Shown piece by piece: positions 23,498-33,699 of a DNA stretch of 64,000 bases; position 1 is the first letter of the stretch; each line of letters opens with the position of its first letter. A program made the translations under genes and the position numbers. The notes below the pieces were generated by a model that saw nothing but the letters and a program-made list of their open reading frames with translations, did no database searches and was not told the DNA's origin. Source of the stretch: Streptacidiphilus jeojiense (GTDB lineage: Bacteria; Actinomycetota; Actinomycetes; Streptomycetales; Streptomycetaceae); assembly GCF_000719095.1 (NCBI RefSeq), contig NZ_JOEH01000006.1, positions 289,937 to 353,936 of the forward strand, read 5' to 3'.

Positions 23498-23701
23498 TCA
23501 GATCACGCGGATGTTCTCCGCCTGCGGGCCCTTCTGGCCCTGCGCGATCTCGAACTCCACGGCCTGGCCCTCGAGGAGCTCCCGGTAGCCGGTCGCGTTG
23601 ATGTTGGAGTAGTGGGCGAAGACGTCGGCGCCGCCGCCGTCCTGGGCGATGAAGCCGAAGCCCTTCTCCGAGTTGAACCACTTCACAGTGCCGGTGGCCA
23701 T
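23498..23701 (-). CDS. CspA-family cold-shock protein
   Basis: A 67-residue single OB-fold RNA/DNA chaperone. RNP1 (KGFGFIAQD) and RNP2 (VFAHYSNI) motifs are intact, and the length is exactly that of the CspA family. It melts RNA secondary structure and is often highly expressed. The leader upstream includes a 9-bp hairpin (23796-23818). A strong terminator follows, so it is monocistronic. The start ATG at 23701 is the family start ([10 protein letters not shown]). Confidence 0.98.
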
Positions 23702-23980: not shown

Positions 23981-24682
23981 GTGACGCTGCGGATCGTCAT
24001 CGCGGAGGACTCGTTCCTGGTCCGCGAGGGTGTGCGCCAAGTACTCGACCGCCAGCCGGATCTGGAGGTGGTCGGGGTCTGCGGCGACCTCCCCGGACTG
24101 CTCGCCGCGGTGGACGCCGCGGGCCCCGACGTGGTGGTCACCGACGTCCGGATGCCTCCCACCTCCACCGACGAGGGGATCAGGGCCGCCGTCCGGCTGC
24201 GCCGCAGCCACCCCGGGATCGGTGTGGTGGTGCTCTCCCAGTACGCCGAACCCGCCTACGCCACACCGCTGCTGGCCGAGGGCAGCGCGGGACGCGCCTA
24301 TCTGCTGAAGGAACGGGTGGGCGAGCCGGGGCAGTTGGCCGGTGTGGTGCGCAGTGTGGCGGTGGGCGGCTCGTACATCGACCCGGTGGTGGTGGAGGCG
24401 CTGGTCGCCGACGCGGTGCAGGAGCGCCGCTCGCCGCTGGCCGGGCTGTCCCGCCGGGAGGGCGAGGTGCTGGCGCAGATCGCCCAGGGCAAGAGCAACG
24501 CGGCGGTCGGCGCCGCGCTCTACCTGTCCGAGCGCGCCGTCGAGAAGCACATCAACGCGCTCTTCGCCAAGCTCGGGCTGACCTCGGAACCGGACGTCAA
24601 CCGCAGGGTGAAGGCGGTGCTGCTGTACCTGGCCGCACACCCGGGTGCTGGCACCCCTGGTACGGGTGCGGCGCAGGGATGA
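23981..24682 (+). CDS. NarL/FixJ-family response regulator
   Basis: A 233-residue two-component regulator. The receiver (about 1-125) has the acidic pair ED near residue 9 and the phospho-acceptor Asp in VVVTDVRMPP (near 55), plus Lys in AYLLKERV. The LuxR-type HTH is at about 150-215 (LSRREGEVLAQIAQGKSNAAVG). It starts at GTG 23981; a TAGACT -10 element ends 6 nt upstream, so the mRNA is probably leaderless. It opens an eight-gene signalling module. Its receiver is closely similar to that of the cyclase fusion at 30334 (shared DEGIRAA, GVVVLSQY, LLAEG and AYLLK blocks), so the two look like paralogues. Confidence 0.95.
   Translation: MTLRIVIAEDSFLVREGVRQVLDRQPDLEVVGVCGDLPGLLAAVDAAGPDVVVTDVRMPPTSTDEGIRAAVRLRRSHPGIGVVVLSQYAEPAYATPLLAEGSAGRAYLLKERVGEPGQLAGVVRSVAVGGSYIDPVVVEALVADAVQERRSPLAGLSRREGEVLAQIAQGKSNAAVGAALYLSERAVEKHINALFAKLGLTSEPDVNRRVKAVLLYLAAHPGAGTPGTGAAQG
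24643..24656. promoter_or_regulatory. 14-bp palindrome GGGTGCTGGCACCC before the receiver-only gene
   Basis: Perfect palindrome centred 43.5 nt before the start of the gene at 24693, inside the 3' end of the response regulator gene. An identical copy, with further matching bases downstream (CyGGTmCGG), lies at 31748-31761. A likely binding site for the module's NarL-type regulator. Confidence 0.65.
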
Positions 24683-24692
24683 TCCTGGCGGT

Positions 24693-25085
24693 ATGGAGCG
24701 TACCGTCCTGATCGTCGACGACCAGCCGCTGTTCCGGTCGGTGGCCCGGATGATCGTGGCCCGGATCCCGGGCTGGCGGATCCTGGCCGAGGCCGCCTCC
24801 GGCGAGGAGGCGGTGGACCGGGCGGCTGGCGCCGCGGTGGTGCTGATGGACATCAACCTGCCCGGTATCGACGGGATCGCGGCCACCCGCCGGATCCTGG
24901 AGCGGCAGCCGGGCACCGCGGTGGTGCTGCTGTCCACCTACGCGGCCGAGGACCTGCCGGCCGAGGCGGCGCGCTGCGGCGCGGTCGGCTACGTCCACAA
25001 GGACGACCTGACCCCCTCGCTGCTGCGCGAGCTGGTCGGCGGTGCGGCGGGGACCGGGATCTCGCCGCCCACCGCGGTGCCCTGA
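24693..25085 (+). CDS. Receiver-only response regulator (no output domain)
   Basis: A 130-residue stand-alone receiver: acidic DD near residue 10, phospho-acceptor Asp in VVLMDINLPG (near 52), Thr/Ser position in LLSTY and Lys in GYVHKDD. No DNA-binding domain follows, so it may work by phosphotransfer, by competing for the kinase or by protein contact, as CheY does. The ATG at 24693 lies 10 nt after the preceding regulator gene. Its last 97 nt overlap the convergent histidine kinase gene, so each gene constrains the other's coding. Confidence 0.9.
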   Translation: MERTVLIVDDQPLFRSVARMIVARIPGWRILAEAASGEEAVDRAAGAAVVLMDINLPGIDGIAATRRILERQPGTAVVLLSTYAAEDLPAEAARCGAVGYVHKDDLTPSLLRELVGGAAGTGISPPTAVP

Positions 25086-27142
25086 CCCGGGCGGGACTCC
25101 ACGGTGAGGCGGCCGCCGATGGCGCCCAGCCGGTCCGCCATGTTGACGAAGCCGCTGCCGGCCGCCGCGCCGTCGGCGGCGAAGCCCCGGCCGTCGTCGC
25201 TGACCCGGAACCGCAGCATCCCGTCGTCCGCCTCCACCAGCACCGTGACCGAGGCGTCCGGGCCGGCGTGCTTGCCCGCGTTCTGCAGCGCCTCCAGGCA
25301 GCAGAAGTAGACCGCCGCCTCGGCGGCCTCCGGGTAGCGTCCGGGCAGCTCGACCGAGACCGTGCAGGGCAGCACCGAGCGCCGGGTGGCCGAGCGCAGC
25401 GCCTGCCCCAGGCCGTGGTTGCGCAGCAGCGGCGGGTAGATGCCGTGCGCCAGCTCCCGCACGGCGGCGACGGTGCCCTGGACGTCGGTGCGCAGCTCCT
25501 CCAGCAGCGCGGTGACGGTGGCCCGGTCCTCGTCGCCGCCGTCGGCGGTGTCGACGAGCTCGCGCACCAGCGCGAGCTTCACCGACAGGGCGACCAGGTG
25601 CTGCTGGGCGCCGTCGTGCAGATTGCGCTCGATCTCCCGGCGGGAGGCGTCGGCCGCGGTGACCAGGCGCAGCCGGGAGTCCCGCAGCTCCTGGTTGCGG
25701 GACCGCAGTTCCTGCAGCGAGGCCTGCAGCGCGGAGTCCAGCCGGACGTTGTGCAGGGCCAGGCCGACCTGGCGGGCCAGCTCCACCAGGACCCGGTCGT
25801 CGGCCTCCGAGTAGGGCGCGGCGTCGGCCGGCCGGCGTACCAGCAGCAGGCCCAGCAGCTCGCCGCCGTGGGCGGCGGGGGCGACCCGGACCAGCGGGTC
25901 GCCGTCCGGCCCGGGGTCCTGGCCCGGCTCGCGGTCGGGGTCGGGGTCGCGGTCGGGGTCGGCCAGCAGGTCCGCCATCCAGATCGCGGTCCAGCCGGCT
26001 CCGCCGATCCTGGTCCGGCCGACCACCGCCCGCTCGTGCTCGGTCAGCCTGATCCGTCGCTGTGGCCGGTCGGGGACGCTGACGGTGCGGGTCAGCAGGC
26101 CGTCGCCGCCGACCCAGATCTCCGCCCCGGCCGGGCCCAGCGTGGCCCGCAGTGACTCCGCCAGCTGCAGCAGCAGCTCGTCGAACGGCAGGGCGCGGGT
26201 CATCCTGGCGCCGAAGCCGGACAGTGCCTCCTCGGGGGCCAGCTCGCCCAGCCGCAGCAGGGACCGGCCCAGCGCGTTCAGCCGCAGCCGCACCGGCAGT
26301 GCCAGGGCCGCGCAGACCAGGGCGGCGGTGACGCTGTAGGCGAGGACGTCGTGCTCCCGGCCGACCGGGGCCCGGCCCAGGCCGACGACGGTGACCAGGT
26401 AGACGGCCACCACCAGGCAGGCCAGGCCGGAGGTGGTGACCGCCTCCAGCAGCGCCCGCTCGGCGAGCCTGGCGGTGGACGGCAGCTGCCCGAGCAGGCT
26501 GCCGACCGGGATCAGCACCAGGGCCGCCAGCGCCCAGGGGGCCAGTGCGGCCGGGAGGCCGACCAGGATGTGCAGCGCCAGCAGCACCGCGTCGGCCGCC
26601 CCAGCCGTCACCGTGCCGGCGGCGACCCACTGCAGCACCCGGCGGCGCGCGGCCCCGGCCTGCCGGCAGCGGCGGGCCACCCCGGCGACGATCACGGCGG
26701 TGGCGGCCAGCACGCCCGCCGCGGTGATCCCGGCAGCGGGGCCGTGGGCGGCGGTGGACCGCCAGGCCAGGACGGTCCAGGCGGTGGCGACGGCGTAGAC
26801 CAGGGCGACCGCGGTGCGGCGCCGGGGGTGGTCCAGCCGGCCGTCGGGCAGCGCCAGACCGCCCCAGGTCCAGGCCGCCAGGGTGAGCGGCGCGCTGGAC
26901 GGCCATACTGCAGCCGCAGCTTGACTGATCGTCAGCACGGCGGCCAGCCGCGCCGGAGCGGTGAGCCGGGCCCGGTCGCAGCCCGCCGCGGTCAGCAGCC
27001 AGCCGACGGCGACCACGGTGGAGGCGGTGCGCAGGCCGTCCGGGCGGCGCACCGCGTCCACCGCCGTGGCCAGTACGGCGAGGGCGGCCAGGACGACCGG
27101 CAGCCGCGAGGACTTGGGGACCCGCGAGGACTTCGGGGCCAT
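24989..27142 (-). CDS. NarL-type sensor histidine kinase with membrane region and GAF domain
   Basis: A 717-residue sensor. N-terminal half with about 8 membrane helices (residues about 10-290), a GAF-like domain (about 310-465) interrupted by an Asp-Pro-rich tract (DPDRDPDPDREPGQDPG), a coiled segment, the HisKA_3 dimer domain with phospho-His in EIERNLHDGAQQHLVALS (near 500), and the ATPase domain with LEALQNAGKHAG and DDGRGF. The ATG at 27142 was chosen over the one at 27175 because it has GCGGAG 7 nt upstream and avoids overlap. It is the last gene of the cyclase/ABC operon and is 4 nt after the permease gene. Confidence 0.92.
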   Translation of the reverse strand: MAPKSSRVPKSSRLPVVLAALAVLATAVDAVRRPDGLRTASTVVAVGWLLTAAGCDRARLTAPARLAAVLTISQAAAAVWPSSAPLTLAAWTWGGLALPDGRLDHPRRRTAVALVYAVATAWTVLAWRSTAAHGPAAGITAAGVLAATAVIVAGVARRCRQAGAARRRVLQWVAAGTVTAGAADAVLLALHILVGLPAALAPWALAALVLIPVGSLLGQLPSTARLAERALLEAVTTSGLACLVVAVYLVTVVGLGRAPVGREHDVLAYSVTAALVCAALALPVRLRLNALGRSLLRLGELAPEEALSGFGARMTRALPFDELLLQLAESLRATLGPAGAEIWVGGDGLLTRTVSVPDRPQRRIRLTEHERAVVGRTRIGGAGWTAIWMADLLADPDRDPDPDREPGQDPGPDGDPLVRVAPAAHGGELLGLLLVRRPADAAPYSEADDRVLVELARQVGLALHNVRLDSALQASLQELRSRNQELRDSRLRLVTAADASRREIERNLHDGAQQHLVALSVKLALVRELVDTADGGDEDRATVTALLEELRTDVQGTVAAVRELAHGIYPPLLRNHGLGQALRSATRRSVLPCTVSVELPGRYPEAAEAAVYFCCLEALQNAGKHAGPDASVTVLVEADDGMLRFRVSDDGRGFAADGAAAGSGFVNMADRLGAIGGRLTVESRPGQGTAVGGEIPVPAAPPTSSRSSEGVRSSLWT

Positions 27143-27146
27143 CGGT

Positions 27147-29552
27147 TCACTCCGCTCTGAGGGTCTGTCCGACATGGAGCCGCGCGGCGCGGTGGCCCGG
27201 CCAGGCGGCGAGCAGATTGGCCAGCAGCAGCGCGACCGGTCCGGCCAGCAGCAGCGTCAGCAGGGCCAGCGGCGGGTGGTAGGCCAGCGGGGTGCTGTCG
27301 GCGACCTGGCGCCACAGGGTGCGGCCCAGCGCCAGGCCCAGCGGGATCCCGAACACCAGCCCGACCAGGGCCAGCACCGTGGCCTGGACGACCACCACCA
27401 GCCGGGACTGACGCCGTGTCATGCCCAGGGCGCGCAGCACCGCCACGTCATGGCGGCGCCGCCGCACCGCGGTGGCCAGGGCGTGCCCGACCGCCCCGGC
27501 CGCGAGCAGCAGCAGGAAGCCGCCGAGGAACAGTGGGAGGGTCTGCACGTCCTGGATCTCGGCGAGCTGCTGCGGCGCGGTCACCTGCTGCAGGCCGATC
27601 GACTGCCCGCCGGTCAGCGGTGCCGCCTCGTGCTGCAGCCGCTGGGTCATGGCGGCGGTGACGCTGCCGGGGCGCAGCGCGATCTCGGCGAGGTGGAACT
27701 TGAAGGTGGTGCCGAACAGTGCGCGGTAGCCGTCGGTGGTGGCCCAGGCGCCCGCGTCGTAGTCGTTGTGCGAGCCCTCGGGGACGAAGCCGATGCCGGT
27801 CACGGTGAACTCCCGCCGGGCCCGCGCGGCACCGGTCAGGGTCACCCACGACCCGACCTCGGCGTGCAGCGCCCGGGCGCTGGTGGGCGCGAGCATGATC
27901 TGGTCCGCGGCCTGCGGCAGCCGGCCGGAGACGGTGACCACCGACAGCGGCTTCCCGCCGACCGGGTCGACGGTGTAGGTGGTGATGGAGGTGTCCCCCG
28001 ACTCCGCGACCGCGATCCTGGCGTTGTTGACGGCGGTGACCGCGGGGTCGGCGGCGATCCGCGCCAGCACCGGGTCGACCTTCCCGAAGTCGGTGCTGTT
28101 CAGGCCGAGGAAGCTCTCCAACTGGTGGGTCTGGCCGAACCTGGCCGGGTTGGCGGCGGCGTCGGCGACGGCGGCCGCGAAGGTGAAGGCCGCCAGCACG
28201 CCCAGCACCCCGATCACCGCACCCAGCAGGGCCGGGCGCACCGGTACGGCGGTGCGTCCGCGTCCGGGCTCCAGCGCGAACCGGGTGCCGACCACGACCG
28301 GCACCGGGAGCCCGGCCCTGGCGGTGGCCACGGCCACCGCGGAGCGCCTGGGCGCGGTCCGGTTCTGCGCCGAGGCCAGCGCCAGCCAGGCCGAGGCCAC
28401 GGATCCGGCCAGGGCCAGCAGCGGCGTCAGCACCAGTCCTGCTCCCAGCACCAGCCAGTCCACGTCGAAGCCCGGGCTCGGCTCGTAGAGGGCCGCGGCG
28501 CCGATCGGCATCCACCGGGACACCAGGACCGCCCCGGCGGCCCCGAGCAGGCTGCCGAGGAGCGCCGCGATCACCGGCCCGGCCGATGCCGCCGCGAGGG
28601 CCTGCCGGTTCCCCAGTCCGACCCCGCGCAGGGTCTGCAGGTCGGCGACGGTGGCCGAGGTGTAGCGCAGCACCGACTGGCCGACCAGGAACAGCGCGGC
28701 GATCAGCGCCGCACCCGCGAAGCCGAGCAGGCAGTCGCCCTCGAAGGTGTTGACCCTGGTGGCGTGGCGTTCCAGCTCGGCGTTGTCCCAGATGTCGATG
28801 TCGGTTCGGCCGGAGACCCGGGCCAGGTCGGCGCGGAACTCCGGGATCGTCTTCTCGCCGCCTTTGAGCCGGACCAGGGCGTTGAGGTAGATCTGGTCGG
28901 TGCTGCCGACGAAGTTCGCCCTGTGGTTCAGGTAGAGCGCGGCCGACACCGCGACGCTGCCCTGGTCCCGGACGTTGTCGTGGTACCAGGGCGAGCGGAC
29001 CACGCCGACGATGCGGGCCCGGATCGAGGGCCCCGCCGGGGCGCCCGGGTCGGCCCCGGTGACGTAGGTGTCGACCTGCGCGGGGGTGAACAGACGGATC
29101 GTCAGGTAGTCCCCGACGCCCTTGTGGAACGCCCCCGGGAAGTGCGCGCTGACCACCACCTCGTCGTCGCGCGCCTGGTCGGCGAGCCGGCCCTGCAGCA
29201 CGATCGGCCGCTCGATGGTGCGCATGTTCGCGTCGTCGGCGACCGCGAAGCCGGTGGAGTTGTCCGGGACGCCCTCGATCTGGAAGGAGGAGATCACGAA
29301 GGTGGTGAGGGCCTCGACCTCGGGCAGCGCCCTGATCCGGTCCCAGTCGAAGCCGTGCTGGTTGGGCAGCACGGTGATGTCGGCCGGGCTGGTCCGCGCC
29401 ACCAGCCGGTCCACCGCGGTGTCCCCGCGCCGTGCCCCGGCCACCGAGGCGAGCACGGCGGTGCCGGCCAGCGCCACCAGCAGGGCCAGCACGACCAGCG
29501 AGCGCCAGCGCCGCCGCAGTTCCAGGCGCAGCCAGAGGGCGGTGAAGGTCAT
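27147..29552 (-). CDS. FtsX-like ABC transporter permease
   Basis: An 801-residue membrane protein of the FtsX/MacB/LolC type: N-terminal membrane helix (about 18-40), a large extracytoplasmic domain (about 45-240), then repeated helix groups with FtsX domains at about 260-390 and at the C-terminus (about 665-790), typical of full-length permeases that work as fused halves. MacB-like systems transfer mechanical force to extracytoplasmic partners or extract lipoproteins and peptides. Its stop and start overlap the ATPase gene as ATGA. It sits between the ATPase and the kinase, and such exporters next to kinases often act as sensors. Substrate unknown. Confidence 0.92.
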   Translation of the reverse strand: MTFTALWLRLELRRRWRSLVVLALLVALAGTAVLASVAGARRGDTAVDRLVARTSPADITVLPNQHGFDWDRIRALPEVEALTTFVISSFQIEGVPDNSTGFAVADDANMRTIERPIVLQGRLADQARDDEVVVSAHFPGAFHKGVGDYLTIRLFTPAQVDTYVTGADPGAPAGPSIRARIVGVVRSPWYHDNVRDQGSVAVSAALYLNHRANFVGSTDQIYLNALVRLKGGEKTIPEFRADLARVSGRTDIDIWDNAELERHATRVNTFEGDCLLGFAGAALIAALFLVGQSVLRYTSATVADLQTLRGVGLGNRQALAAASAGPVIAALLGSLLGAAGAVLVSRWMPIGAAALYEPSPGFDVDWLVLGAGLVLTPLLALAGSVASAWLALASAQNRTAPRRSAVAVATARAGLPVPVVVGTRFALEPGRGRTAVPVRPALLGAVIGVLGVLAAFTFAAAVADAAANPARFGQTHQLESFLGLNSTDFGKVDPVLARIAADPAVTAVNNARIAVAESGDTSITTYTVDPVGGKPLSVVTVSGRLPQAADQIMLAPTSARALHAEVGSWVTLTGAARARREFTVTGIGFVPEGSHNDYDAGAWATTDGYRALFGTTFKFHLAEIALRPGSVTAAMTQRLQHEAAPLTGGQSIGLQQVTAPQQLAEIQDVQTLPLFLGGFLLLLAAGAVGHALATAVRRRRHDVAVLRALGMTRRQSRLVVVVQATVLALVGLVFGIPLGLALGRTLWRQVADSTPLAYHPPLALLTLLLAGPVALLLANLLAAWPGHRAARLHVGQTLRAE

Positions 29553-30337
29553 GACGGACCGCCGGCCGCGCCGGACTCGGCTGCGTCGGAACCGGCCGCG
29601 GTGGGCCCGGTCGCGGTGGCCCCGTCGTCGACCACCCGGCCGTCCCGCATCCGCACCGCGCGGTCCGCGCCGGCCGCGACCTCGGGGGAGTGGGTGACCA
29701 TCACGATGGTCTGGCCGTCCTCGTGCAGCCGCCGGAAGAGCTCCAGCACCTCCGCGCCGCCCTCGCTGTCCAGCGCCCCGGTCGGCTCGTCGGCCAGCAG
29801 CAGCCCCGGCCGGTTGACCAGGGCCCGGGCGATCGCCAGCCGCTGGCGCTGGCCGCCGGACAGGCTGGACGGCAGCTGCGCGGTGCGGTCGCCGAGCCCG
29901 AGGATGTCCAGCAGGTCCCGGCCGCGCGACTCGGCCGCCCTGCGCCCCATCCCGCCGAGCACGCCCGGCAGCACCAGGTTGTCCAGCGCCGAGACGCCGT
30001 CGAGCAGGTTGAAGAACTGGAACACGAAGCCGATCCGGTGCCGCCGGAACCGTGCCAGCCAGTCCTGGTCCCGGCCGTCCACCCGCTCCCCGGCCACCTC
30101 CACGGTGCCCTCGTCCACGGTGTCCAGTCCGGCGATCACATTGAGCAGGGTGGACTTGCCGCAGCCGGAGGGTCCCATCACGGCGACGAACTCGCCGGGA
30201 CCGACCTCAAAGTGCACGCCCCGCAGTGCCCGCACCGGTGCGAGCTCGGCGGCGAAGACCCGGCGGGCGCCGGTGATCCGCACCGCGGGGACGGCGGGCC
30301 GCGCCAGGTCCTCGGCCGGGGTGTCGAGCGCGGTCAT
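29549..30337 (-). CDS. ABC transporter ATPase, MacB/LolD-like
   Basis: A 262-residue nucleotide-binding subunit. Walker A MGPSGCGKST (near residue 54), Q-loop FVFQFFNLL (near 100), ABC signature LSGGQRQR (near 155) and Walker B LLLADEPTGALD (near 175) are complete, so it should hydrolyse ATP. The FNLL Q-loop and the LDSEGG sequence after Walker B are typical of the FtsE/LolD/MacB branch, matching the FtsX permease that follows with a 4-nt ATGA overlap. Its ATG at 30337 itself overlaps the stop of the cyclase gene as ATGA. The Thr/Ala/Ser-rich tail after residue 240 is unusual. Confidence 0.96.
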   Translation of the reverse strand: MTALDTPAEDLARPAVPAVRITGARRVFAAELAPVRALRGVHFEVGPGEFVAVMGPSGCGKSTLLNVIAGLDTVDEGTVEVAGERVDGRDQDWLARFRRHRIGFVFQFFNLLDGVSALDNLVLPGVLGGMGRRAAESRGRDLLDILGLGDRTAQLPSSLSGGQRQRLAIARALVNRPGLLLADEPTGALDSEGGAEVLELFRRLHEDGQTIVMVTHSPEVAAGADRAVRMRDGRVVDDGATATGPTAAGSDAAESGAAGGPS

Positions 30338-31710
30338 GGGCGGGCCTCCAGAGCGGGATCGGGAACGGCGGCCGGATCGGGGCCGGCGCCGACCGGCAGT
30401 CGGAAGGCGACCACCGGTGCGCTGTGGCCCTTGACGCTGCAGGGTCCCAGCGGGTCCCAGGGCCAGCTCCCGTCGGCGGTTCCGGCCGCGTCCACGGTGC
30501 CGGCGGTGGCCACCGTGGTCCCGGCCGGGCGGGCCAGGTCCTGCATCCGCTGGGCCAGGTTCACGGTGTCGCCGACCAGGGTGTACTCCAGCCGCTCGGC
30601 GCTGCCCAGCAGCGCCGCCGCGACCTCGCCGGTGCTCAGCCCGATGCCGAGACCGAACGGGACCAGGCCCAGCGCCGCCCACTCCCGGTCCAGCTCGTGC
30701 TGGCGGCGGTGCATCCCCCGGGCCGCCCTGACGGCCCGTCGGGCGTGGTCCGGCTGCGGCTCGGGCGCGCCGAACACCGCCATCACCGCGTCGCCGACGT
30801 ACTGCATCACGGTGCCGCCCTCGCCCAGCACCGCCGCGTTCATGGCCCGCCGGTGCGCCCCCAACTGCCCGGCCAGGTCCGCCGGATCGGTGCGCTCGGC
30901 GATCGAGCAGTAGCCCCGGACGTCGGACATCAGCACGGTCACGGTGAGCCGCTCGGTGCGGGTGGCCGCGCCGCGGTCCGCGCGCAGCTTCTCGGCCAGG
31001 CCGCCGGGCAGCAGCCGGGACAGCGTCTCGCCCTGCTCCTCGCGGCGCAGGATCGCGGTGTGCAGCAGCCGCAGCCGCCGCAGCGCGCTGTCCCTGGCCC
31101 CGCCGGAGCCCCCGCCCGCGTCCTTGGCCAGCCGCAGGAACAGGCTCTCCACCGCGTCGTTGACGGCCGCCGGCGGCTGGCCCAGGCCCGCGGCGATGGC
31201 CTTCACCGGCCGCCCCTCGGCCACCTGCCGCAGCAGGTCCTCCTCGTCGGCCGACAGCTCGCCCTCCCGCCTGGCCGGCTCCATCAGCTCCCGGACGATC
31301 TGCGGGTCGATCATCGAGCCGCCGCCGGCGACCGCGCGGATCGCCCGCCCCAGCAGCCCGGCGTCGGCGATCCGGTCCTTGAGCAGGTAGGCGTATCCGG
31401 CCTCGCCCTCGGCCAGCAGCTGCACCGCGTAGTCGGGGTCGTCGTACTGGCTGAGCACGACCACGCCCGTCCCCGGGAACTGCTTGCGCACCCGCTGCGC
31501 CGCCCTGATGCCCTCGTCCTGGAAGTCCGGCGGCATCCTGATGTCGGTGACCAGCACCTGCGGGCGCAGCCGTTCGGCCCCCTCGACCAGTTCGTCGTAG
31601 TCGGCGGCCAGGCCGACCACCTCCACGCTGCGGTCGCGGGACAGCAGTGCGCGCACACCCTCGCGGACGATCAGGTTGTCGTCGGCGAGCAGCACCGTGA
31701 TGCTCTCCAT
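30334..31710 (-). CDS. Response regulator receiver fused to a class III adenylate/guanylate cyclase
   Basis: A 458-residue protein. N-terminal receiver (about 1-125; phospho-acceptor Asp in VLVTDIRMPP). At about 150-205 is a degenerate LuxR-type HTH (ADEEDLLRQVAEGRPVKAIAAGLG), then a class III cyclase domain (about 235-440). Metal-binding Asp residues in VLMSDVRGY and YVGDAVMAVFG and the transition-state Asn/Arg in GDTVNLAQRMQ are present. The usual purine-specifying Lys is replaced by Gln (GTVMQYVGD), so the ATP/GTP choice is uncertain. It is the first gene of the operon cyclase-ATPase-permease-kinase. The start is close to a TGTAAT -10 element, suggesting a leaderless transcript. A palindrome identical to that before the receiver-only gene is centred 44.5 nt upstream. 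Confidence 0.93.
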   Translation of the reverse strand: MESITVLLADDNLIVREGVRALLSRDRSVEVVGLAADYDELVEGAERLRPQVLVTDIRMPPDFQDEGIRAAQRVRKQFPGTGVVVLSQYDDPDYAVQLLAEGEAGYAYLLKDRIADAGLLGRAIRAVAGGGSMIDPQIVRELMEPARREGELSADEEDLLRQVAEGRPVKAIAAGLGQPPAAVNDAVESLFLRLAKDAGGGSGGARDSALRRLRLLHTAILRREEQGETLSRLLPGGLAEKLRADRGAATRTERLTVTVLMSDVRGYCSIAERTDPADLAGQLGAHRRAMNAAVLGEGGTVMQYVGDAVMAVFGAPEPQPDHARRAVRAARGMHRRQHELDREWAALGLVPFGLGIGLSTGEVAAALLGSAERLEYTLVGDTVNLAQRMQDLARPAGTTVATAGTVDAAGTADGSWPWDPLGPCSVKGHSAPVVAFRLPVGAGPDPAAVPDPALEARP

Positions 31711-31747
31711 GACGGACCATTACACAGTGTCGCCGGTCGGCTTCCCA

Positions 31748-31761
31748 GGGTGCTGGCACCC
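31748..31761. promoter_or_regulatory. 14-bp palindrome GGGTGCTGGCACCC before the cyclase operon
   Basis: Identical to 24643-24656 and centred 44.5 nt from the cyclase start codon, against 43.5 nt at the other site. A weaker copy (11 of 14 bases) lies at 31786-31799, towards the divergent gene. The position just upstream of a probable leaderless start fits an activator site near -44. Confidence 0.65.
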
Positions 31762-31817
31762 CCGGTCCGGTCGGGCAGCACTCCTGGGTGCCGGCTGCCG
31801 CTGCTCCTAACGTCGTT

Positions 31818-31849
31818 GGTGTGAACGGACCCTGACGGATGATCACACC
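31818..31849. promoter_or_regulatory. Inverted repeat GGTGTGA-N18-TCACACC before the cNMP-binding gene
   Basis: Halves at 31818-31824 and 31843-31849, 15 nt before the start at 31865. The halves equal the TGTGA/TCACA halves of CRP sites, but the spacer is 18 nt instead of 6, so it may be an mRNA hairpin or a site of another protein. Confidence 0.4.
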
Positions 31850-31864
31850 TCATCGGAGCAGACC

Positions 31865-32875
31865 ATGCGGATCGAGTCACGGACCACCTCGCTGTCCTGG
31901 ATACCCTCCGAAGCCGTGAAGGGGGTCGCCCGCGGCGCCTTCACGGCCGGCGTCAGCCACTACGACGACCCGCCGCCCGACGTCATCAAGGACTTCGACG
32001 GGCTGCGGGCCGCCGACGGCTTCCGCTTCGCCAACCAGCTCACCGGCTGGGCCGAGTTCGGCGACGACGGCGCCCTGCTGGACTGCGGGGCCGGCGGCGG
32101 GCTGCTGATGGGCTCGACCACGGTGCGGCTCGGCCCGCTCGGCGCGACCTTCGCCGCCGTGGTCATGCCCGAACTGCGCGGCGAACCCGAACGCGGGGAC
32201 GGCTGGGTGCGCTTCACCCAGACCGTGGGCGGTCGCACCGGAGTGCCGCTGCCGCGCCGGATCCCGGGCCGCCCGCTGATCCGGCTGCAGGCCCCCTTCG
32301 TCTGGTCCACCCTGACGCTGACCCTGCACGCCGACGGCCGGGCCGTGCCGATGCTGGCCGGAGCCAGCCCGTTCCCGAGGCACTGGGTCTACGACGGGGA
32401 GGACCGGCTCTGCCTGAAGGCCGGCGTCGCCGACTGGCAGGCCTGGAGCGGCCAGGACTCCTGGCGGCACACCCCGTGGGGCGACGAGGACTCCCCGGTG
32501 CTGGTCACCGCCGCCGAGACGGCCCTGGAACGCGAGCTGTCGACGCTGATCATGCGCGGCGGCCGCCGCCCGGCGGTGCGCGAGCTCGCGGCCGGCGAGG
32601 TGCTGATCCGTCAGGGCGACCCGGGGCGCTCGCTGTTCCTGCTGCTGGACGGCCTCGTCGCGGTGGAGGTCGACGGCAGCGGACTGGCGGAGCTGGGTCC
32701 GGGCGCGGTGGTCGGTGAACGGGCCGTCCTTGAGGGCGGTCTGCGCACCTCCACGCTGACCGCGGTGACCCCGGTCCGGGTCGCCGAAGCCGCCGCGGAG
32801 ACCGTCGACACCGCGGCCCTGCGGGCGCTGGCGGCGGGCCACCGCCGGGAGGAGGGCCGGGCGGAATGCGGGTGA
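31865..32875 (+). CDS. Protein with C-terminal cyclic-nucleotide-binding domain
   Basis: A 336-residue cytoplasmic protein. The C-terminus (about 235-325) is a CRP/PKA-type cyclic-nucleotide-binding beta-barrel: LAAGEVLIRQGDPGRSLFLLLDG is the classic opening, followed by LGPGAVVGERAVLEGGLRTSTLTAV, the phosphate-binding cassette region with its Glu and Arg. No helix-turn-helix follows, so it is not a CRP-type regulator. The first 230 residues are not recognised; they contain a Gly-rich CGAGGGLLMGS and many beta-strand-like stretches. It is divergent from the cyclase operon and overlaps the following hydrolase gene by 10 nt. A likely receptor for the nucleotide made next door. Confidence 0.85.
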   Translation: MRIESRTTSLSWIPSEAVKGVARGAFTAGVSHYDDPPPDVIKDFDGLRAADGFRFANQLTGWAEFGDDGALLDCGAGGGLLMGSTTVRLGPLGATFAAVVMPELRGEPERGDGWVRFTQTVGGRTGVPLPRRIPGRPLIRLQAPFVWSTLTLTLHADGRAVPMLAGASPFPRHWVYDGEDRLCLKAGVADWQAWSGQDSWRHTPWGDEDSPVLVTAAETALERELSTLIMRGGRRPAVRELAAGEVLIRQGDPGRSLFLLLDGLVAVEVDGSGLAELGPGAVVGERAVLEGGLRTSTLTAVTPVRVAEAAAETVDTAALRALAAGHRREEGRAECG

Positions 32876-33699
32876 TCCTGCTCGGCGTGCGCGGCTCCAC
32901 CCCGGCGCCGGGGCCCGCGTTCCTCCGCTACGGCGGCCACACCAGCTGCGTGGCGGTGGTGCCGGACGGCGCGGAGGTGCCGACGCTGGTGCTGGACGCC
33001 GGGACCGGGCTGCGGGACCTCGGTGCCCGGCTGGGCGGGGCGGAGGCGTTCCAGGGCTCCGTGGTGCTCACCCATCTGCACTGGGACCACGTCCAGGGCC
33101 TGCCGTTCTGTCCGGCCGTCGACCGCAAGCAGGCCAGGGTCGACCTGCTACTGCCGGTCCCGGTGGGCGGTCCGGAGCCGGCCGGGCTGCTGGCCCGGTC
33201 GATGTCGCCGCCGCACTTCCCGATCGGACCGGAGGGTCTGCTGGGCGGCTGGCGCTTCCTCAGGTCGGTCCAGGGGCCTTGCCAGGTAGAGGAGTTCACC
33301 GTGACCACGGCCGAGATCAGGCACAAGGGCGGCCTCACCCACGGACTGCGGATCGAGTCCGGCGGCGCGGTGCTCGCCTATCTGCCCGACCACGCCCCGG
33401 CCGGGGGTTCGGCCGTCGCCGAGGCGCTGGCGGACGGCGCGGACCTGCTGCTGCACGACGGCCAGTTCCTGGCCGGGGAGCGGTCCCTGGCCGACGGCTA
33501 CGGCCATGCCACGGTGCCGGACGCGGTGGCCTTCGCGGCCCGCTGCGGCGTCCGCCGGCTGGTGCTCACCCACCATGCGCCGACCCGGACCGACGACCAG
33601 CTCGACCTGCTGCGGGCCGAGTTGGACGACCTGCGGTGCGGCGGCGGCCGGGTGGAACTCGCCCGCCAGGGCGACACCCTGACGGTCAAGGCTACTTGA
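32866..33699 (+). CDS. Metallo-beta-lactamase-fold hydrolase, possible cyclic-nucleotide phosphodiesterase
   Basis: A 277-residue protein. The zinc motif THLHWDHVQGLPF (near residue 72) equals HxHxDH; a further Asp is in LLLHDGQF and His residues in GHATVPDA and LTHHAP near the end. The opening MRVILLGVRGSTPAPGPAFLRYGGHTSC is typical of the RNase Z/PhnP-like branch, which includes enzymes annotated as cAMP phosphodiesterases. It is coupled to the cyclic-nucleotide-binding gene by a 10-nt overlap, which suggests that it degrades the same nucleotide, but this is inference from position and fold only. Confidence 0.9.
   Translation: MRVILLGVRGSTPAPGPAFLRYGGHTSCVAVVPDGAEVPTLVLDAGTGLRDLGARLGGAEAFQGSVVLTHLHWDHVQGLPFCPAVDRKQARVDLLLPVPVGGPEPAGLLARSMSPPHFPIGPEGLLGGWRFLRSVQGPCQVEEFTVTTAEIRHKGGLTHGLRIESGGAVLAYLPDHAPAGGSAVAEALADGADLLLHDGQFLAGERSLADGYGHATVPDAVAFAARCGVRRLVLTHHAPTRTDDQLDLLRAELDDLRCGGGRVELARQGDTLTVKAT

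Follow-up and report, generated by a model that had tools for sequence, protein, structure and literature searches.

A 64,000-nucleotide (nt) stretch of the Streptacidiphilus jeojiense genome (GCF_000719095.1, contig NZ_JOEH01000006.1, positions 289,937-353,936; hereafter the window) contains, at window positions 23981..33699, a locus of eight genes that we analyzed as a cyclic-nucleotide signaling module. An earlier reading of this DNA from its letters alone (the sequence-only reading) had named eight open reading frames (ORFs) there, among them a cyclic-nucleotide-binding (CNB) protein and a metallo-β-lactamase (MBL)-fold hydrolase. All eight proved to be uninterrupted frames with the coordinates given below, and Pfam supported every label. 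Genes, domains and a repeated sequence element, with protein lengths in amino acids (aa), are as follows.

23981-24682, plus strand: NarL-type response regulator, 233 aa; Pfam Response_reg and GerE (receiver and LuxR helix-turn-helix, HTH)
24643-24656, no strand assigned: inverted repeat GGGTGCTGGCACCC, 14 bp, inside the 3′ coding end of the NarL gene, with the receiver gene 36 bp further on
24693-25085, plus strand: stand-alone receiver protein, 130 aa; Pfam Response_reg
24989-27175, minus strand: membrane histidine kinase, 728 aa; Pfam HisKA_3, HATPase and a weak GAF match (under cut-off)
27147-29552, minus strand: FtsX-type ABC permease, 801 aa; Pfam FtsX in two stretches, eight hydrophobic segments
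29549-30337, minus strand: ABC ATPase of the MacB/LolD/FtsE group, 262 aa; Pfam ABC_tran
30334-31710, minus strand: receiver-cyclase, 458 aa; Pfam Response_reg and Guanylate_cyc
30409..30975, minus strand: class III cyclase domain of the receiver-cyclase, residues 246-434, with Gln303 at the base-selecting position, from alignment to 2w01 and 6fht
31123..31263, minus strand: degenerate LuxR-like HTH of the receiver-cyclase, residues 150-196, between receiver and cyclase
31748-31761, no strand assigned: identical copy of the inverted repeat GGGTGCTGGCACCC, 14 bp, in the divergent cyclase/CNB promoter region
31865-32875, plus strand: CNB receptor protein, 336 aa; Pfam cNMP_binding at residues 239-314
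31865..32530, plus strand: N-terminal β-rich domain of the CNB protein, without a Pfam family
32866-33699, plus strand: MBL-fold hydrolase, 277 aa; Pfam Lactamase_B_2, HxHxDH motif and further residues of metal-ligand type

On the minus strand, the cyclase, ATPase, permease and kinase genes follow one another with successive overlaps of 4, 4, and 29 nt, the last of which holds if the kinase starts at the ATG at 27175. The plus strand carries two sets, NarL with the receiver gene and CNB with the MBL gene, the latter pair overlapping by 10 nt. Both the ATGA junctions of cyclase, ATPase and permease and the CNB/MBL overlap had been described in the sequence-only reading and were confirmed here; the 29-nt overlap, the antisense overlap given next, the LuxR-like stretch of the cyclase and the paired inverted repeats had no mention in it. 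The 3′ end of the kinase gene lies tail to tail and antisense to the receiver gene over 97 nt (24989-25085), and hydropathy analysis of the kinase placed five hydrophobic segments above threshold.

Conservation of this arrangement was examined by scanning genome contigs with a CNB alignment, which confirmed 191 stretches; the best 80 were retained as loci, and the eight window proteins were mapped onto all of them gene by gene. Among the 48 well-flanked loci (at least 9 kb on either side of the CNB gene), the receiver-cyclase was present in 41, the MBL gene in 37, the kinase in 35, the permease in 34, the ATPase in 33, NarL in 21 and the receiver in 20, and all eight genes occurred together in 11 (13 of the 80 loci overall). 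For NarL and the receiver these are minimum numbers, since the longer permease region of many Streptosporangiaceae outruns the 10-kb flank. When the 1,138 predicted ORFs of the 80 loci were clustered, the eight largest clusters were the eight module families. Carriers included Streptosporangiaceae, Frankiaceae, Pseudonocardiaceae, Jiangellaceae, Microbacteriaceae, Acidimicrobiia, Egibacteraceae and Candidatus Dormiibacterota, and the neighborhood was found across Actinomycetota and Candidatus Dormiibacterota, with linkage of module genes holding at 50-60% protein identity. The gap between the CNB and MBL genes was -4 to +10 nt in 49 of 51 pairs from relatives (exactly -4 in 31), the two exceptions being one gap of +33 and one reversed order (L032).

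Since the 80 loci had been picked by similarity, an even draw of 396 genomes from across the phylum provided a fairer test; CNB and cyclase draws were of the same size and used the same genome handles, and the two lists were compared by hand. The CNB N-terminal domain was found in 30 of the 396 genomes. A receiver-cyclase of at least 58% identity occurred in 18, and 17 of these, the window genome counted, also possessed the CNB domain, which was found in none of the 17 genomes whose cyclase was of 42-51% identity. In the 17 genomes with both, the two genes lay within about 2 kb of each other in 11, about 6 kb apart in one and on different contigs in five. The expectation that the neighborhood would recur in relatives was borne out, and the grouping of the genes goes beyond chance, the same families being neighbors in relatives with CNB/MBL spacing kept. 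Taken as a whole, the conservation gives good support to the view that the eight genes form one unit, and we regard this as very probable. Some observations weigh against the signaling circuit proposed below: the 80 loci, as the most similar of 191, are biased toward close kin; a gene was scored as present anywhere in a locus above set thresholds, which were lenient for the kinase and permease; 13 of the 30 CNB-domain genomes in the even draw lacked a cyclase of at least 58% identity; and 13 of the 23 CNB loci without a receiver-cyclase showed no class III cyclase in the stretch examined. In favor of the circuit, a different class III cyclase ORF lay nearby in the other 10 of those 23 (three of the 10 were in the hidden Markov model seed).

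Within the window's own genus, the full CNB protein was present in 2 of 14 genomes, and it was found in none of the other 47 relatives sampled. The second carrier (G011) possesses all eight genes in unchanged order at 85-97% identity. Lateral gain of the module in this genus is plausible because, in the cyclase tree, the window sequence is sister to those of Streptosporangiaceae.

The sequence-only reading had noted that an inactive cyclase domain would speak against it; the active-site residues proved intact. In the module clade (receiver-cyclases of at least 55% identity; 78 rows, with fewer readable at some positions), the metal ligands D263 and D307 were kept in 76/76 readable rows and the transition-state residues N384 and R388 in 74/74, the two Asp, one Asn and one Arg expected of class III cyclases. 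The receiver phospho-site D56 was present in all 78 rows, and a phospho-Asp could be read by eye in all three receivers of the window. The base-selecting position showed a different pattern. Lys at this position has been assigned to ATP and Glu to GTP (PMC4215837), and the E488K substitution of Cya2 switches Glu (GTP) to Lys (ATP) in the same column (PMC5995499); in our alignment the column holds Glu in 2w01 (Cya2, a guanylyl cyclase) and Lys in 6fht (an engineered adenylyl form). All 76 readable module-clade cyclases carry Gln (Gln303 in the window), neither the Lys of ATP-specific adenylyl cyclases nor the Glu of guanylyl cyclases, and of 74 residues read at the second base position 57 are Thr and 17 Ser. 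The 16 readable lower-identity cyclases carried Lys in 14 cases, Gln in one and Asp in one. In the cyclase tree, 75 Gln rows and one Asp row were split from 14 Lys rows and one Gln row with 100/100 support, the history of the position required three changes, and the Asp row sat on a very long branch.

Gln by itself leaves the product unsettled, because Rv0386 of M. tuberculosis, in which Gln is paired with Asn, produces mainly cAMP. What favors another product is that Gln is fixed at the ATP/GTP switch in the clade that owns the receptor and the hydrolase; counting against it, besides Rv0386, canonical Lys cyclases adjoin other CNB relatives. We offer only tentatively, as a possibility well short of even odds, that the module messenger may be a private cyclic nucleotide other than cAMP. 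If so, the circuit would be insulated from the cell's general cAMP/CRP signaling, and the fixed Gln in any case makes messenger identity a sharply testable question. As a separate observation, in L055:854-4129, L064:7161-9881 and L074:7217-9895 the CNB gene stands beside genes for large cyclase-domain proteins with Gly at the base position and His in place of the catalytic Asn; these are perhaps inactive cyclases serving as nucleotide sensors.

Pfam did not detect GerE in the stretch between receiver and cyclase; NarL-family models of full length, as well as DevR (3c3w), nevertheless aligned through it. The best genome-wide match to the receiver/HTH portion of the cyclase was the module's own NarL protein, which scored 157.0 bits, whereas the second of 26 matches reached 127.0. 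The simplest reading of these alignments is that the NarL gene was duplicated and one copy became fused to a cyclase domain, giving the receiver-cyclase.

The phosphate-binding cassette of the CNB protein is conserved among 65 family members (G284 65/65, E285 63/65, R294 65/65, T295 64/65), which suggests that the protein is able to bind a cyclic nucleotide. All 65 matched cNMP_binding, with extra weak matches to Cupin_2 in three and RHS_repeat in one. Their Pfam matches included no HTH family, whereas a CRP/FNR protein would carry a C-terminal DNA-binding HTH, in agreement with the sequence-only reading that the receptor lacks a DNA-binding domain. In the window protein, hydropathy analysis revealed no hydrophobic segment and Pfam no TIR match. 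The N-terminal domain was matched by 7,575 of 8,000 scored candidates, and the 120 matches listed cover 85-100% of its length. This domain is conserved and has no Pfam family, and the receptor family is the newest part of the module. Its main domain is one to which no function has been assigned and, should the messenger be private, it would represent a new kind of non-transcriptional cyclic-nucleotide output.

In the MBL protein, H70, H72, D74, H75, H153, D175, and H237 were invariant in 24/24 rows, giving the HxHxDH plus His/Asp ligand pattern of the metal-dependent MBL phosphodiesterase superfamily. The sequence-only reading had placed this enzyme in the branch containing cAMP phosphodiesterases. 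The PF12706 fold and the metal ligands agree with that placement. Against the Rv1339-type phosphodiesterase model NF041851 the protein scored 51.2 bits, far below the curated cut-off of 400, and against RNase Z 52.9 bits. Its function is judged from context because it is only distantly related to NF041851 and equally close to RNase Z. Given its position beside the receptor gene, the MBL protein probably destroys the cyclic nucleotide.

The two copies of GGGTGCTGGCACCC in the module are half of the four exact copies in the 9.16-Mb genome; the other two lie inside long ORFs elsewhere. Using a 12-bp core with at most one mismatch and 50 rounds of dinucleotide shuffling as background, we found the core in 24 of 60 cyclase/CNB regions of relatives (shuffles: mean 0.32, maximum 2) and in 7 of 27 regions upstream of the receiver gene (0.2 expected). 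Within 250 bp upstream of the CNB gene, the box was present in 22 of 74 loci with the receiver-cyclase and in 0 of 23 without it. Because this symmetric box tracks the regulator and the cyclase, not the receptor, we read it as a candidate binding site for the NarL protein. On the other side, 36 of the 60 cyclase/CNB regions had no box at this stringency, related loci are not independent in these counts, and the box was likewise absent from all 14 lower-identity loci with NarL beside a cyclase. In L123-L136, such lower-identity cyclases are mostly divergent from an adjoining NarL regulator gene, with spacers of 27-96 bp (13 of 14 loci; not L122), and several of these spacers share, by eye, a GGATGGTAYAC-like string, a different putative box.

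The best NCBIfam match of the ATPase was MacB (220.9 bits); of its 197 family matches, all 25 that were listed, MacB included, fell under the cut-off, and so did the permease in all four families listed. An ABC pair is lacking in L033, L034, L049 and L079, although these loci have the other six genes, and in L027, L044 and L058 both the pair and the MBL gene are absent while five genes are kept. Because it is missing from loci that retain the remaining module genes, the pair is an optional part; it may serve as an input or an output, possibly as a sensor that works together with the kinase. The proposal that the ABC genes drive export found no support, the pair being dispensable and nothing favoring exporting over sensing. 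The permease family comprised 48 ORFs in 31 loci, many of which carry two FtsX permeases versus one in the window (for example, L002:2284-7082 and other Streptosporangiaceae loci). L033, which has no ABC genes, carries between kinase and cyclase a lipoprotein-like ORF (L033:7181-8623) that matches cupredoxin at its C-terminal end and is a possible alternative sensor.

These results suggest a self-contained, branched two-component circuit in which the membrane kinase, perhaps with input from the FtsX-type ABC transporter, would sense a signal at the membrane and phosphorylate the three receivers. Phosphorylated NarL would act at the inverted repeat to raise expression of the cyclase operon and of CNB-MBL, the phosphorylated receiver-cyclase would produce a cyclic nucleotide, and the stand-alone receiver may tune or drain phosphate. 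The messenger would bind the CNB protein and change the state of its N-terminal domain, giving a post-transcriptional output, and the MBL enzyme, produced in step with the receptor, would hydrolyze the messenger and end the signal. It is likely that the locus encodes a cyclic-nucleotide circuit that is driven by a two-component system and has a receptor of its own; we favor with more reserve the complete chain, in which NarL acts at the box and the MBL protein is the off-switch. With export set aside, what stands of the joint function originally proposed is a unit under two-component control that appears able to synthesize a cyclic nucleotide, to bind it and probably to degrade it.

Two alternatives assign some of the same genes other roles. 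The CNB/MBL pair could be an effector unit, in which the MBL protein is a hydrolase other than a phosphodiesterase and is switched by the CNB protein. The tight coupling of the two genes, the fact that the MBL protein resembles RNase Z as much as the phosphodiesterase model, and the occurrence of the pair where no receiver-cyclase was found (L043, L048, L051, L057, L061, L155) are all consistent with this; yet a cyclase and a receptor need an off-switch, for which the locus showed no candidate other than the MBL protein, whose metal-ligand pattern suits phosphodiester hydrolysis, leaving the effector unit an unlikely though serious competitor. Somewhat less probable still is a Bce-like envelope-stress or antimicrobial resistance module, with the ABC transporter as its core and the cyclic-nucleotide branch as a side output. 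Bce-type systems use a kinase with a short intramembrane sensor and an OmpR-type regulator, and the module resembles them in grouping an FtsX permease with an ATPase, a kinase and a regulator. Two cyclases of lower identity that lie outside the module (L134, L137) also adjoin an ATPase and an FtsX gene, and lower cAMP made a mycobacterium less tolerant of cell-wall antimicrobials (PMC9293780). However, the loci listed above dispense with the ABC pair and keep five or six of the other genes, and the NarL-type regulator, the multi-pass HisKA_3 kinase of five segments with its weak GAF match, and the cyclic-nucleotide branch all differ from the Bce type.

Far less probable is an anti-phage system of the Pycsar kind, in which a cyclic pyrimidine would be made on infection and the CNB protein would be the killing effector. 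In Pycsar, the CNB effector is fused to a TIR or transmembrane killing domain. The PADLOC PycC model matched the cyclase at 68.1 bits, Pycsar TIR effector models matched the CNB domain at 38.4 bits, and the module is patchy within the genus, as seen in its 2 of 14 genomes; but the PADLOC matches cover shared domains only, the CNB protein has neither of the killing domains as judged by Pfam and hydropathy, and such a system is not suited by a module with a kinase, three receivers and an enzyme that probably degrades the messenger, whose gene content is much alike across several classes. Least probable of all is that the genes are neighbors without joint function, kept together by shared descent. 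Gene order is indeed best kept among close relatives (Streptosporangiaceae), but the eight families form the eight largest clusters over several classes while other flanking genes vary, and their linkage persists both at 50-60% identity and in the even draw. The two-component-driven circuit thus remains the interpretation that we prefer.

Every domain of the module is already known except the N-terminal one of the CNB protein, and a literature search, with most subscription journals outside its reach, found no description of the eight-gene set. Bacterial cAMP signaling is best known through CRP-type transcription factors. The module shares with response-regulator-controlled class III cyclases and NarL two-component systems the receiver phospho-Asp before the cyclase, the HisKA_3 kinase and the NarL regulator; it differs in the LuxR HTH relic of its cyclase, in having the closest NarL relative of that cyclase in the locus, and in its CNB receptor and MBL enzyme. 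The best solved-structure matches to its cyclase domain were Synechocystis Cya2 and the PagC-PaaC cyclases (2w01 and 6fht; 111 and 109.5 bits), which differ from it in the base column as described. With the Rv1339-type atypical class II phosphodiesterases, it has in common the PF12706 MBL fold, the metal ligands and a likely cyclic-nucleotide substrate, whereas its low-scoring MBL gene is fixed beside a CNB receptor. The CNB domains of CRP/FNR, PKG/PKA and channels have the same fold and phosphate-binding cassette, but the module protein carries the N-terminal domain without a Pfam family instead of a DNA-binding or kinase domain. The solved chain of BAS0735 (PDB 3c5p), a protein of unknown function on which our literature search found no paper, is 193 aa long, about the length of that domain alone. 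The module would bring the synthesis, reception and probable degradation of a messenger together with two-component control in a single compact locus that is widely conserved among actinobacteria.

Directly before the NarL gene, a small minus-strand ORF (23498-23701) resembles a cold-shock protein by eye, no search having been made. The ninth largest ORF family of the 80 loci, present in 18 of them, was an FAD-dependent oxidoreductase of about 478 aa (NAD_binding_8/amine-oxidase-like). It lies between receiver and kinase in L006:2126-3565, after the MBL gene in L033:11844-13277, and next to a lone CNB gene in L053:11022-12455.

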